From Onchidella celtica (Eukaryota; Mollusca; Gastropoda; Systellommatophora; Onchidiidae), in NCBI GenBank assembly GCA_963931925.1, contig OZ007570.1, forward strand, positions 42,119,687-42,183,686: DNA of 64,000 bases, in the 5' to 3' direction. The notes under the pieces were generated by a model. The model did not search any database. It saw only the letters and a program-made list of their open reading frames with translations, and was not told the origin of the DNA. Made by a program: the position numbers and the translations under genes. Shown here in pieces: positions 13,990 through 62,859 of this stretch. Positions within the stretch are counted from its first letter, which is position 1, and each line of letters opens with the position of its first letter.

Positions 13990-15900
13990 TAAATTGGGCA
14001 AAGTAACACGCAGCTCATTACCAAAAGTTTTAGAAAACGAGGCAAACAATATTATTGAACAGTTAGGATATTTGGGATTAAAAGCAAACGCCTCGAAAAC
14101 ACAATTAGTCTTTTATAACTCAAAAAAGAATGGAAAAGTCCAAATTCAAGGCACCCCTGTACATTCCACGTCATCGGCAAAATTTCTGGGGGTCATTTTG
14201 GATCGAAATTTAACATATAGGGAGCAGATCGGTGACAGAGCCAGAAAGAGTTTGGGGGCCTTAAATGTAATGAGAAGGATTTCCGGCTGGAGATACGCCG
14301 CCCCCTTCAAAACTAGGCTTCCTCTATAATAATTATATTAGGGCTAGATTTTCATACGGGGAGGAGCTCTATCACACAGGAAACAAAACTAGCTTAGACA
14401 GCCTGGATTCTATACAGTACTCAGCCCTTAAAAATCTTTCACAAATACACAGTGGACCCAGTCAATTAAAATTAAATGCGGCTCTTAAAATACCCCCTTT
14501 ACATCTGGAAAGAACTAAAAGCATTCTGAAATACTGGGCCAGAACAAAATTAAATCCAGGCAACCCTATAAACATCATCATTGAAAACTATGAAACTGAA
14601 ATCCAACTTAAACGAAAGCCGCGACTAGACACATTAAGAAATAAAAGTTTAATCCATAACATGATTGATCTATCCCACAAACTCGGGGGCGGTAATCTCC
14701 AGCTGGACTGCCACCTCCCACTTCCACCAACCTGGGGGCTCGCGGGACTCACCTTAGACACCGCCCTGGCAGATGAAATCAGTAAAAAACTAGATACACC
14801 TACCATTATGAAAGCCAGGGTGTACGAGAACACATAGAAAGATACTACAAACACACAGAGAAAATTTACACGGATGGGTCGAAGACAGAGGACGGGCGTG
14901 TGGGATTGGGCATCTACAGCACAGACACAGACTTAGATAGGTCAATCAGAATCACAGACAACACGAGTATACTCACCGCAGAGCTACACGCAATACAACA
15001 AACACTTATAGAATTGGACGCCCGCCGGATCACGGACCGACGGGTGACCATTCTTACAGACTCATTATCAGCCATAAAGACAATACAGACAGAAAGCCAG
15101 TCTAACAGCAAACACAACATGATACACAGCATTATCACACTTGTAGATAGGATTTTCAGATGTGGTCCTGCTATGGATACCGGGCCACGTGGGGGTCACC
15201 GGGAATGAACCGGTGCACCCGGGACCTCCTGGCTAAGAGTGCCACAACAAAAACAGAAATTTTAAACATTAAACTAGATAAAAGTGACATCTATAGTCTA
15301 ATTAAAAAACATATAAATGAAATTTGGAAAACTGAATTTGAAGGATACCTAAATCAAAAAGTAAACATAATAAAGCAGATATATCAGAACTGGGAAACAT
15401 TTGTTATGGATTTTAGCACTCCCAGCGAGCTAGGCCTAAATACCCTAAGAATAGAAACTTATATAGACTTAGGGGCAACTTTAATTGTAATCTCTGCGAC
15501 GTGCCCATGACGACAGAGCACATTCTTTTTAACTGTAAGAAAAATGTAATAGAAAGGAATAAACTCAAAAGGTTATTTAATGAAACGAAAAAACCATTTA
15601 CATTGGCCGGTGTCCTGTCTCTTGTAGACAATAGTTTTAAAAAAGAAAAAAGGGCCCTTGTCAACAAAATAAATCTATACGTTGACTGTAGCAAAGCTGG
15701 CACCCCTGACCTGGCAGATCATGGTAGCAATGGCACCACTCAAAATCCCATCGCGGAATAGCGTGCTGAGGTCGGCCACCGGTGGGGGCCGGAGGCTGGG
15801 TGACGCCGTTTCAACCGCGCACGGACTGACAGAGGGCTCGCCAGCTATAAAATATAAAACAAATAAATATATACGTAACTACAATATTTTAATTAAAAAA
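13990..15900 (+). mobile_element. 5'-truncated LINE with RNase H domain (I/jockey group)
   Basis: Pieces of one ORF2 in order. The end of the reverse transcriptase (13994-14329) has the LGLKANASKTQLVF and AKFLGVILDRNLTYREQI motifs. A linker in a second frame follows (14335-14840). An RNase H domain runs from 14862 with YTDGSK, TAELHAIQQ (14976), TDSLSAIK (15055) and WIPGHVGVTGNE (15168). A tail follows with GNE-R..LLAKSA and a CxxC..H..C knuckle (CNLCDVPMTTEHILFNC, 15486-15536). All acidic RNase H residues (D, E, D) are present. At least two frameshifts (near 14330 and 15205) and a stop near 14836 kill it. The RT catalytic FADD box lies in the missing 5' part. The tail is A/T-rich near 15860-15930. 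RNase H after RT is known in the I, Ingi, LOA and Loner clades. Confidence 0.85.
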
Positions 15901-24425: not shown

Positions 24426-24687
24426 ATAGAGAGTCCGCGCATAGACGTGACGTCGGCGAAAGTTACCCAACGCGGAGGAATTTGTCCATTTTCGCACTAT
24501 CTTGGGTCGCGCTTAGTTGCGATTCGGCTGTGAGAGTTACGAAAGTAACTTTGCAACTTTGTCGATACGGAGCTTCTGTTTGTGAACTTTTCACCTGGAA
24601 ACAAGCTTTTTTTCACGATATGAATGGATTTTTATGACATATTAACCTTTTTTCTTGCGAATTTGATGGCCATTTTTTCCTGCCCAT
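24426..24687 (+). repeat. Repeat R500, left half (host of the transposon)
   Basis: Starts GAGAGTCCGCGCAT and runs to CATTTTTTCCTGCCCAT. It matches 32682-32938 nearly base for base. The right half resumes at 29910 after the 5.2-kb insertion. Contains GGTCGCGCTTAGTTGCGATT and GACATATTAACCTT. No gene. Confidence 0.85.
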
Positions 24688-24713
24688 CGTTAACGGTATG
24701 ATGAAATCGGCCA
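24688..24713 (+). repeat. Left terminal inverted repeat
   Basis: Begins CGTTAACGGTATGATGAAAT and ends CGGCCA. It pairs with 29884-29909 with one mismatch (A against G at position 11). The outermost 9 bases contain the palindrome GTTAAC. Confidence 0.9.
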
Positions 24714-24852
24714 AACGCCCCAAATACCGTAACTCATTTTTTTACTGAAAAATAATGTCCACTTAAGGGCCCATCATTCTATGAAACTCACAGGGCTGAA
24801 TTTCAATTAGAAATTGCCAAAATATTACACTAATGTTTTCGACCATATCCAT

Positions 24853-24910
24853 CCGGCATTATGAAGTCGGACACCCGACAGAGCGCCGATTAGACGATTT
24901 CGTCATGCCG
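24853..24910. repeat. Left subterminal motif copies
   Basis: CCGGCATTATGAAGTCGG at 24853-24870 and, on the opposite strand, GATTTCGTCATGCCG at 24896-24910. Both are variants of the terminal core GGYRTGATGAAATCGGCC. Such clustered copies are usual transposase binding sites in other transposons (inference here). Confidence 0.65.
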
Positions 24911-25916
24911 ATTAGGGGGCCTTGGCGTCTCTTGACCGACCGGGCGCCACGGGTGTCTATACAATGAGACGCTCTAATTGCGTCCTATTGTAAGGTGTCT
25001 GGCGGATTAAAATCCTTTGATCTATTGATCTTGGTCGAACGGCAGTTCCCATCTGGTAAGCTAGCTCTTACCCATCCCTCACGTTTATTTATTTATTTAT
25101 TTATTTTTAAAATTCAGAATCAATCAAAGATGATTAAAGCTAAATGTAAAGGATACTGCCAGAAGAAAACGAACTTAAAATCAAAACTCAAATTAGAAAT
25201 TGCATAAAGTACAAAATTGCTGCTATTATTTTAATGTTTGTGTGAGGGAACTGGGTAAAAAATGTGCAGTGCTGGATTATTCTATGTTATTTACCTAGAG
25301 AATTTGCAGTGATGCAATTCAGGTTGCAATAAAAGATTCTCTCACACATACGCATCTGAAATAATTCTGTGAAAGTTTAATTTTCTAAGAGGGTTGTTGG
25401 GTTGGAACCTTTAAGTCTGGGTTAAAAGTTATTCAATGTTTTTCTGTTTAAAAAAGTGCGGGGACTTTAAATCCCCGTCAGTAAAGAAAGCCGAATGTGA
25501 TTCTGTTTCTATTTCTCATTTTGGCGAAAATCTAGGAATACAAGTACTGACCGTATGTATGTAATGATGATGACGTTGGAGGGGAGTAGGGGAAGTCTTG
25601 AAAATATTTTGATACAGGTATGTAACTTCAGCCACTGCCGGCGACATCAAAGGAAAACAGTCGGAACAAGTTTACCGTAGCCAACAGATGGTCCGCTGAT
25701 TAAGCAAACCAATCAGACTGCACATCAATGATTGGTGACCATCCCATCTTGTCCAGACCATTTTCATTGGCTTATGTCGCGTCGAAGATTGGAAATGAGC
25801 TACCCGGGAATATTCGGGCTTCACTCCGAACTTTCTTCTCATCCACACTGACACGAAAGTTTGTTCATACTCATAAATTTATGTGCAAGGGATAAGTTTA
25901 CTCGATTTAGGCAGCA

Positions 25917-28900
25917 ATGAATCCCCTCAGCAGAGCGGGAAGAATTTTGCAGTTGTCAAAAGAACTTAATTCCAATTCAAGTGAGGATAAGAAACATCAA
26001 GAAAATGAACCTATTCTGGATATATCGCCGACAACGTCGCAAAGAGTTGTGAATGATGTTCTTTTCAATGACACTGTCGATATGGATATCTCTGTGTCAG
26101 TTTTTGACGAAATCTCCAGTGAAAATAATGTGAGTGTAGGATGTTCAACCCCAAGACAGAAAGCCAACTATACAGGCAATATTCGGCGGGATGAAACAGG
26201 TGAGTGATTGATAAAATATTTTAATTTATATTTTCTTATCATGTTTATCAGTGTATTCAATCTTCCAAGCTTTTGAGGAAATTCTTTTTTTAAAGGAAAA
26301 TCTACATTCAATATTCCGGTGTCAATTTCATTGTTAAGCACCATTTATATGTCAGAATTTAATATCTTTAATGTGTATTCTTCCTGTTCCACGTACCTCA
26401 TCACCACATCTTCTTTTTCTTTCTATCACACTCCATTTTTTTCTCCTTCTGTTTCATTCGATTTTTCACCAGCTTTACTTTAGGCTATTCTCCTTCCTTT
26501 AATATTATTAGTAGTCTAATACTTTTCTTCTCCCAGTTTCTGCTCGTTCAATACTGTCCTAGTAGCAGTAGTAAGGGATATCAAAACATTTTATTCTTTT
26601 AGATTTGACGTCACCACCGGCGAAGTCTGGCCATACTCCAAATTCTGGGCCATCTCGTGTCAAACATGATTCTCGGATCTCATCCAGTTTCGGATCACTT
26701 TCGAATGATCAGTCAGATCTACAAACATTGATACCTAGTATTCAGCCAGACCTTAGTCTTTCACCATCCGGTGTCCTAAAATACTTCCAACCGTCTCCAA
26801 ACAACAATCAACCAGACCCTCAGCTATTAAAGACGTCAAAGGTCAATGACCGACCGGACTCTCAGCCTGAGTCAAACGGTACTCAACTGTGTCCTTCACC
26901 GACAGAAGTCATTTATCGGCCAGATCCGCAGTTGCCGTCCATCAGTGCTAAACGGACAAGTGACATACCTGACCATGAACAGGCATCCGCCTTTGCTCAA
27001 TCGCCTTCCCTCTCCCTAGAGGCACAAAGCTGCAGTCATCCAGATCTTCAGCTGGCATCCTCCAGTAGTCAACTTTGTCCTTCAGCGACACAAGCCAGCG
27101 ACCCTCCTGACCCTCAAGCGGCATCAACACTAACTCAGCTGTATCCCTCTACTACGCAAGCCATTTGTCAACCTCAGCTAGCATCAGCCTCTACTCAACC
27201 AGACGTTTTGACAGACGAGCACAACATTACGAACGTTAAAAAACAACAGCCAAAAGGCGAAAGCGAATGGAAGCAGAACACCAGAAAGCGCCGAAGAGAG
27301 ATGGGAAGTGAGTACGTCAGCTGCACGGGGAAAATAATGCCAGCAAAAACCTTGAAGGATCCTTGCTCATGCAAGTCTAAGGACACTAAATGTTCCGAGT
27401 TTTCTTTGGATGTCAGGAATGAAATTTTCCTTCAAGTATGGTCACTCACTTGGAACGAAAAAAGAAATTATATTTATGGATTAGTTGACCAAACAGGTGT
27501 GAAAAGAAGACGAACAAAAGGTATCCCTTCGAGGAATGTTACTTTTCAATATTCTTTAAAAAAGAATGGACAAAAGCTGCCTGTTTGCCGCACCATGTTT
27601 TTAGGCACCACCGGCCTGACAAAGTACTTCGTCCACTCATGTTTCGATTCGAAAAAGGAGGACACAACTACAGACAATCTTTCCTTAACTGAACAGGGCA
27701 GCTCTGAGCAAGAGATAGCCCAAGTGAAGAACACTACAAGTCACAGCATTTCTAAACAGAAGAGTAGGCCGTGCAATCCTCATTACGAGAGAGGAAATGA
27801 AGCCCATGACTTTCTCCAAAAATTTTTCGATGACCTGCCTAAATTGCCTAGCCACTATTGCAGGAAGTCCTCTGCCAAAATGTATCTGGAGAGAAGGTAC
27901 CGCTCCTTAGCGGAACTTCATAAACATTACCAACACCATTGTCAATCCAACAATAAGAATTCATTTCAAATCAGAGCATTTTCCAAAGAATTCCATAAGA
28001 GAAACTTGTCCATCTATGTGCCCAAGAAGGATAGATGTGACCTCTGTGTAGGATATGAAACTGGCAATGTGTCCCAAGACGAATGGCAAGACCATAGGAA
28101 TTTTTTACAGCAAGCTTTGGAGCACAAGGACAATGACAAACAAAGAGCGTTGCAGAGCAAAGCCAACGATGATGGCCAGTTTGCAGCATTTTGCATGGAC
28201 TTAGAATCCGTGCTGCTGGCACCAGACACCAATGCTTCAGCCATGTACTTTAAAACCAAGTTATGTGTCCACAATTTTACCATCTACGACTTGGCGACTG
28301 CAGATGTTACCTGCTATGTGTGGAACGAAACTGAGGGTGGACTGTCTGCAAATGAATTTGCTACCTGCATTATAGATTACCTCAAAGGAAGAAATGTGAC
28401 CAAAGAAGTTGTAATCTACAGTGATGGCTGCACATATCAAAATCGCAACCAAATTCTTGCCAATGCCATCCAGTATTTTGTGGAAACATCAAAAATCAAA
28501 GTCCACCAAAAGTACCTAGTCAAAGGACACACCCATATGGAGGTGGACTCTTCACATAGCCTCATTGAGAGAGCCCTCAAAGGCGTATCAATCAATGTTC
28601 CACATGACTATATCAACGTTATTAAATCAGCGCGAAAGAACCCCAGGCCTTTCACTGTAAGATATTTACACCATGATTTTTTCAAAGATTTTTCAAAATG
28701 TGGACCCTACACCAGTATCCGCCCGGGACGTAAAAGTGGAGACCCAGTGGTGACTGACATTCACAGCCTGCTTTATACGCCAGCCACCGAAGATGGACAA
28801 AAACATGTCATACAGTACAAAATGTACTTTAATGACGAATATCAAGACTTGCCCCATCCTCCCAGGGACCTTCAAAAGCACGTATTTAAAGAACCTGGTG

Positions 28901-29031
28901 CTCTGCACCAAGAGAGACTTAAGATCCCAGCTTCGAAATATAAACATCTGCAAGAGCTAAAAAGGGTCATTGACAAAGAGACTGCCATGCATTCTATGAC
29001 TCACTGCCTCATCAGTAAAAAAAAATGTTGA
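25917..29031 (+). CDS. DUF7869-like DDE transposase-type protein (two exons)
   Basis: Exon 1 is 25917-26199 and exon 2 is 26603-29031. The donor CAG|GTGAGT and acceptor TTCTTTTAG|A join in phase (split codon GAT), giving about 903 residues. The start is the first ATG after an in-frame TAG at 25908. Residues 1-300 are Ser/Pro/Gln-rich with degenerate repeats of a PDPQ..S..TQLCPS type. A Cys cluster follows (C335, C349, C351, C358), then CRTMFLGTTGLT, SHYCRKSSAKMYLERRY, YVPKKDRCDLC (C573, C576), and a core with D627 (FCMDLESVL), D702 (YSDGCTYQNRNQILANA) and KGHTHMEVDSSHSLIE (E741, D743 or E750 as third acid). That spacing and fold pattern suggest a DDE nuclease. The name DUF7869 is from memory. 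Its place as sole gene between inverted repeats makes it the likely transposase of the surrounding element. Not a standard host gene. Confidence 0.88.
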
Positions 29032-29555
29032 TTCGCTAAGTTTTACTACAGCTATGAGAATCAGACTTGCAGACAAAAGACGAGACAGATGACATATAAA
29101 GGGAGAAAGGGAAGGGAGTGGGGAGGGGTGAGAAGATATAAAACCTATAGTATTGATGTCCTGGTCGGTTAATCTAAAAGATATTTCTCTTTTTTTTTTT
29201 TTTTTGTATTCATAAAATGAAACGAATGTTGAATTTTCTAGCCATATTTTGTCGCTACTGTCGTCATCATCATCATCATCTTCATTGTTATCATCTTTCA
29301 CTCATTTTCTAAAGAAGATTGATCGTTTGATTAAATTAATTATTATCTGTTTAAATCTCTGTTCTAGTTTTATTTTATAAATGTTTAATTGTTGCTTGTT
29401 GTTGCTGTTGCACTTCTGATCACTGTGTGTTGTGGTTGTTTTGGATGTCTCTTGTTGTTGATGTTAAAAATTTCCGTCGACAATATTGTGTTAGTTCATA
29501 AAAGCCCATCAATTTATCATCAAATAGTCGGCCATCTACCGCGGTCGACCCCAAT
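29032..29555. other. 3' non-coding part of the transposon
   Basis: Between the stop codon and the right subterminal motifs: AG-rich DNA (29090-29135), a T run at 29191, an ATC/CATCAT tract at 29265-29282 and a GTTGTT-rich stretch at 29390-29460. No canonical AATAAA stands out, so the polyadenylation site is unknown. Confidence 0.5.
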
Positions 29556-29704
29556 GCGGCATGATGAATTCAGCCAGTGCGCCAGATGTCGATTGGCCGA
29601 AACCGCTACTCTGCGGCTGGCCTCGATCCGGCATGATGATTTCAGCCAGCACGGTTAATGTCGCTAGGCCGATTTCATCGTGCCGCTTCACTTCGGCCAT
29701 ATCC
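29556..29704. repeat. Right subterminal motif cluster
   Basis: Three copies of the terminal core: GCGGCATGATGAATTCAGCC from 29556, CCGGCATGATGATTTCAGCC from 29628, and GGCCGATTTCATCGTGCCG inverted at 29667-29685. CGGCCATATCC at 29694-29704 is also mirrored on the left by GACCATATCC at 24841. The cluster is denser than on the left, so the ends are asymmetric. Confidence 0.75.
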
Positions 29705-29883
29705 AACATTTTATTTTCAAGAGTTGCTATCTCTGAAAATTGCCAACGTTGAACATTATTGTAAGACACGTAAGAGGAGAAAGTATTTCTGTATTATTTG
29801 AATTAAGTATTATAGTAATTTGTGCGAACCTCTTTAGTGAATTCAGTTTTTTAGCTCTCCTGTAAAGTTTGGTGTTATGCACA

Positions 29884-29909
29884 TGGCCGATTTCATCACA
29901 CCGTTAACG
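29884..29909 (-). repeat. Right terminal inverted repeat
   Basis: Reads TGGCCGATTTCATCAC then ACCGTTAACG on the + strand, the reverse complement of the left end. Followed by CCAT (29910-29913), the target duplication. Confidence 0.9.
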
Positions 29910-30160
29910 CCATGACTGTTGTGCTAACTAATCTTCATTTCTCAACATGTGGTAAAACCCGAGTTCGCTGTGGTAGCGTAGCATCCTTGTGGTAGTGTAG
30001 CGCCCTACTTTTTCATGTTCGCATGGCCTTTATCGAAGTTCGGCTGCCTTCCCGATTCAGAACTTTAAAATCAGATTAATGTTCGTTCCGTAATCCTGTT
30101 GGTACCACAGTATTGTGGACACGACTTTATTCTGACAACTTACTAACATTTATCCTTTTT
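29910..30160 (+). repeat. Repeat R500, right half
   Basis: Matches 32935-33185 with few differences (GACTGTTGTG.TAACTAATC, CTGTGGTAGCGTAGCATCC, TATTCTGACAACTTA). Together with 24426-24687 it reconstitutes one R500 copy around the transposon. Confidence 0.85.

Positions 30161-40726: not shown

Positions 40727-62859
<22,133 letters not shown>

Follow-up and report, generated by a model that had tools for sequence, protein, structure and literature searches.

We analysed a 64-kb stretch of genomic DNA from the gastropod Onchidella celtica (contig OZ007570.1, positions 42,119,687 to 42,183,686), hereafter the window, and found that its positions 24684-29913 very probably hold a cut-and-paste DNA transposon that inserted recently, together with its 4-bp target-site duplication; its one gene encodes a DUF7869 transposase that has a predicted DDD catalytic core. 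Matched to the published description rather than to Sola sequences, the element probably belongs to Sola2.

Borders and target-site duplications

The element proper spans 24688-29909 (5222 bp). As an earlier note on this DNA had stated, it is bounded by 26-bp terminal inverted repeats (TIRs), the left one (CGTTAACGGTATGATGAAATCGGCCA) at 24688-24713 on the plus strand and the right one at 29884-29909 on the minus strand, which are 96% complementary and differ at a single position. CCAT, read directly from the sequence and without strand, lies on either side (24684-24687 and 29910-29913). Allowing up to three mismatches, the 26-bp end pattern matches two places in the 64 kb, namely the two ends of the element, while 100 shuffles gave a mean of 0.00 matches; a 14-base piece of the end, at three mismatches, gave six matches with 10.87 expected, which is chance level.

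Searching the 1.14 Gb source genome with the 903-residue protein of the element gave at least 86 matches, and the several copies with like ends and 4-bp duplications that the note had called for were indeed recovered. We fetched 16 more places resembling the window element, making 17 with the window (family A), of which nine, window included, have both ends (at most four substitutions) and the remaining eight have one. The nine two-ended copies diverge by 0.19-1.43%, and eight of them carry perfect 4-bp duplications (CCAT, ATAT twice, AAGT, ATAA, ATGT twice and ACAT).

Furthermore, two sister families, B and C, encode proteins that are 45.1% (copy L017) and 43.9% identical to the window protein, respectively. 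Family B elements are intronless and 4.6-4.8 kb long; 17 places (L014-L030) were examined, and the genome listing has further ones. Over the element, thirteen of these copies (L018-L030) match L017 with 99.73-99.94% identity, and they lie in distinct places; family B is a promising candidate for an animal transposon that still works. Exact-match ends were found on both sides in 16 of the 17 places, all 16 with perfect duplications (ATAT in 12, ATTT in two, ATAA and ATGT in one each). For family C two places were fetched, one of which (L047) has ATAA on both sides. Across all families, perfect 4-bp duplications accompany 25 of 27 two-ended copies: ATAT 14 times, ATTT twice, ATGT and ATAA three times each, and ACAT, AAGT and CCAT once each.

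We compared 50 flanks of the nine family A and 16 family B copies (up to 180 bp each, one of 25 bp) by BLAST with a low-complexity filter. No similarity between copies was found at E <= 1e-6, which indicates independent insertions; the sole pairing was between the left and right flanks of L023. This family B copy is inserted in an 88-bp tandem repeat, and removing the element together with exactly 4 bp restores a unit that is 97.7% identical to its neighbours, whereas taking out 0-3 or 5-8 bp instead yields 18-40% identity. For family B, the borders and the 4-bp duplication are therefore shown directly by an empty site. Chance or an assembly artefact is rejected, given that the flanks are unrelated between copies and that the L023 site can be restored. 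The proposal of cut-and-paste insertion with 4-bp target duplications is supported by the empty site and by the two-ended copies, of which eight of nine in family A, all 16 in family B and one of two in family C carry the duplication.

The transposase gene and its predicted catalytic core

The gene lies on the plus strand. Exon 1 (25917-26199; 94 codons and one base) encodes an N-terminus common with the intronless family B; the intron (26200-26602) has GT..AG borders, both of which are present in six of the nine two-ended family A copies, window copy included; exon 2 (26603-29031) carries DUF7869 (PF25273) and the stop codon. Joined, the two exons encode the 903-residue protein, in which Pfam recognises DUF7869 at 40.5 bits compared with a curated cut-off of 26. 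The family B protein starts MDPNSRAGRILQLS, where exon 1 of the window reads MNPLSRAGRILQLS, and in family B this stretch is continuous with the rest of the protein in one open frame. Because the family B N-terminus matches without an intron, the intron model is independently supported. A coding repeat of about 138 bp (26952-27091, plus strand) is present as a single unit in the window copy; of the 16 other family A-like places, 11 have at least two units.

An internal gap at about element positions 1356-1843 is common to the family A copies L032, L035, L039 and L040, and removes the last part of exon 1 along with most of the intron; these copies are perhaps a sub-line spreading without the full gene.

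The predicted fold of the protein contains an RNase H-like core of the integrase/transposase type (28180-28578, plus strand), running from its first strand to the helix that bears the putative third acid. All five acids named in the earlier note (D627, D702, E741, D743 and E750) are found at the residue numbers given, and its choice of catalytic acids proved right, with conservation favouring a DDD triad. D627 (28198-28200), the likely first catalytic Asp, lies in the first strand and is Asp in 182 of 182 aligned rows; D702 (28423-28425), the likely second, falls directly after the fourth strand within SDGCTYQNRN and is conserved in 181 of 182. From its conservation, again 181 of 182, and its position within GHTHMEVD in the helix after the fifth strand, D743 (28546-28548), and not E741 or E750, is most likely the third acid. 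The DUF7869 protein would be a transposase whose RNase H core carries a DDD triad. Against viral models, Foldseek reached E <= 0.001 in two rows, one for an IS4 family transposase (E 4.8e-4), the other for a phage protein annotated as transactivator/viroplasmin (E 9.4e-4).

Several observations weigh against this interpretation. Foldseek against PDB gave zero matches at E <= 0.001 with either structure model, and its top rows include the unrelated folds of NurA, MutS-beta and a poxvirus resolvase; a sequence search of PDB chains found none at E <= 1, and the best hit of a profile search against PDB was a histone chaperone (E 0.037). Two two-ended copies have unmatched 4-bp flanks, L036 of family A (ATAA/ATAT) and L048 of family C. 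Three of the nine two-ended family A copies (L032, L035, L039) lack the intron donor region, and the reading of L038 stops after 280 codons. The ratio of nonsynonymous to synonymous substitution rates (dN/dS) is 1.33 for the close pair L014/L015, calculated from six differences. Finally, the window protein ends in ..SMTHCLISKKKC where copies L033 and L034 have ..DCHAFYDSLPHQ, and it also departs from the family consensus end HxFYDxLPH; the SKKKC ending recurs in copies L031 and L036. The description of the gene as intact stands for its frame, with the qualification that its C-terminus differs and that it has a single unit of the 138-bp repeat. Activity of this copy is doubtful because its C-terminus is unlike that of the family.

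End motifs and a possible mechanism

The motif CGT-N8-(T/C)GATGA-N3-CG starts the ends of families A, B and C, equally far from the border in each, a regularity based on these three families. In the window, the core CGGYATGATGA (at most one mismatch) has eight matches, comprising the two TIRs, five subterminal copies and one copy outside the element (49476). With 1.61 matches expected window-wide, eight were reached in 0 of 100 shuffles, a count that is descriptive only because the motif was picked after the repeats had been seen. On the left, a copy in the orientation of the TIR (24854-24864, plus strand) is followed by an inverted one (24900-24910, minus strand), each with one mismatch. On the right, a copy oriented as the TIR (29675-29685, minus strand, one mismatch) is followed inward by inverted copies at 29629-29639 and 29557-29567, both on the plus strand. 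Each end therefore reads inward as terminal, same-orientation and inverted copy, and the right end carries a second inverted copy. These copies are putative transposase-binding sites.

By analogy with other DDE/D transposases, the N-terminal part of the transposase may bind the element ends at the CGT-N8-TGATGA-N3-CG core, which is found in three families and repeated subterminally in the window element. The catalytic core would then cut the ends and insert them at target positions staggered by 4 bp, ATAT-like sites being the preferred targets, and host repair would produce the duplication. Both DNA binding and catalysis would reside in the DUF7869 protein.

Spread of DUF7869 proteins

PF25273 has at least 150 scored matches in the source genome, all above the cut-off, among 306 candidates, and was positive in none of 14 control genomes. 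Other DUF7869 matches in the source genome (for example G000:C1:54823861-54824277) fall into equal-score groups with equal-length frames (1014, 841 and 491 aa), suggesting further recently spread transposon families.

Relatives were collected by three protein searches, which listed the best 120 of 434 rows, the best 120 of 308 and all 53 rows, respectively. Among the matches listed, most of which are nameless, those with a named source are molluscs, arthropods and one record labelled as a Sedimenticola metagenome-assembled genome, perhaps host DNA; no dictyostelid name occurs among them. A prokaryotic or viral origin was considered and rejected: none of 22 viral-contig and 34 genome-contig pattern matches was confirmed by tblastn.

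The window protein scores above the cut-off for DUF7869, a family to which Pfam assigns no function; the evidence here makes DUF7869 part of a probable transposase catalytic domain. A Pfam family of unknown function would in this way gain a mechanism. DUF7869 occurs in mollusc and insect gene lists, and such 'genes', as transposases, should be masked rather than counted among those of the host.

Other features of the window

At 14274-15208 (plus strand), two open frames lie next to each other and resemble the 3' portion of a non-LTR (long terminal repeat) retrotransposon; an RNase H domain (PF00075, E 4.4e-8) is present in the second. An open frame at 42795-43199 (minus strand) with helix-turn-helix matches below Pfam cut-offs (HTH_21, HTH_Tnp_Tc3_2) is probably a remnant of a Tc1/mariner-type transposase. 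Long arrays of tetranucleotides occupy 46487-47942 (AGAG/AGAT) and 51108-51290 (TAGA x 45.8 with 100% matches). At 60347-60435 (plus strand) ARAGORN calls a tRNA-Asp whose anticodon, atc, is unusual; the call may be a false or SINE-like (short interspersed nuclear element) match.

Classification and comparison with known systems

Sola as a whole is described as having a DDD transposase, 4-bp duplications, a length of mostly 2-9 kb and TIRs of 11-1124 bp (PMC10741241). For Sola2, the description gives TIRs of 12, 13 or 21 bp, an 888-aa transposase in Dictyostelium fasciculatum and AT-rich 4-bp duplications of the form AWWT (ATAT, AAAT, ATTT) (PMC3627910). At 5.2 kb with a 26-bp TIR, the window element falls within the Sola size range, and the predicted RNase H core with its three near-invariant Asp agrees with DDD. 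The duplications are 4 bp and AT-rich, with AWWT in 16 of 25; the other nine (CCAT, AAGT, ACAT, ATGT, ATAA) count against the assignment, and AWWT is thus a preference rather than a strict rule.

The suggestion in the earlier note that the element could be a branch of Sola agrees with these features. Its proposal of a cut-and-paste transposase with 4-bp duplications is supported; newness of the superfamily was not borne out, the features fitting Sola2 as described (PMC3627910). An unnamed cut-and-paste superfamily of DUF7869 transposases, absent from Repbase and the literature, nevertheless has some support: DUF7869 is unmentioned in the literature we searched, those relatives among the matches listed that bear a source name are called uncharacterised, hypothetical, unnamed or by a domain name (DUF7869, integrase catalytic domain), and DUF7869, found in 62 of 65 members, is the one Pfam family with broad matches. 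If real, this superfamily would be large and animal, marked by ATAT-like 4-bp duplications, by ends of the form CGT-N8-TGATGA-N3-CG and, in its DDD core, by the signatures SDGC-x2-QNRN and GHT-x-ME-x-D, and still spreading in this genome. We consider it unlikely, as duplications, protein length, DDD and size all fit Sola2 (PMC3627910, PMC10741241), Sola1-3 are reported from bivalves (PMC10294476) and Sola2 from a parasitoid wasp (PMC7822920), and Repbase is unlikely to have missed a family this common among molluscs and insects.

Slightly less likely still is placement as a branch within a different superfamily that has a name and makes 4-bp duplications (Sola1, Sola3, Chapaev, Academ, Ginger, Kolobok or piggyBac). 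Chapaev, Academ and Ginger also make 4-bp duplications, and Chapaev ends are CAC, in contrast to CGT here. The 4-bp length is common as well to Sola as a whole (PMC10741241) and to Kolobok and piggyBac, but the latter two are TTAA-specific (PMC9587614) and TTAA occurs in 0 of our 25 duplications. The predicted fold is like that of Ginger and retroviral-type integrases, a fold common to many superfamilies; no integrase core or named transposase domain was found by Pfam in 65 members at E <= 0.01, an absence that is weak evidence.

It is highly improbable that the element is moved by another transposase and that its DUF7869 gene belongs to the host or is a passenger: no other open frame of the element is long (818 codons against 114 for the next), three families with different ends carry the gene, and an integrase-type predicted fold and conserved Asp triad are combined with purifying selection in three of four close pairs. 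To our knowledge, the superfamily to which Sola2 belongs has barely been studied biochemically.

The transposase domain of Mos1 mariner and SETMAR (Metnase) is 8-9% identical to the window protein in the rows concerned, and Tc1/mariner makes 2-bp TA duplications (PMC10741241) instead of 4 bp. Retroviral integrase (HIV-1/SIV) is 9% identical in its row and differs in biology and flanking domains. Sola2 differs in that duplications here extend beyond AWWT, and resembles the window element in its AT-rich 4-bp duplications, short TIRs, protein of about 900 aa and DDD triad.
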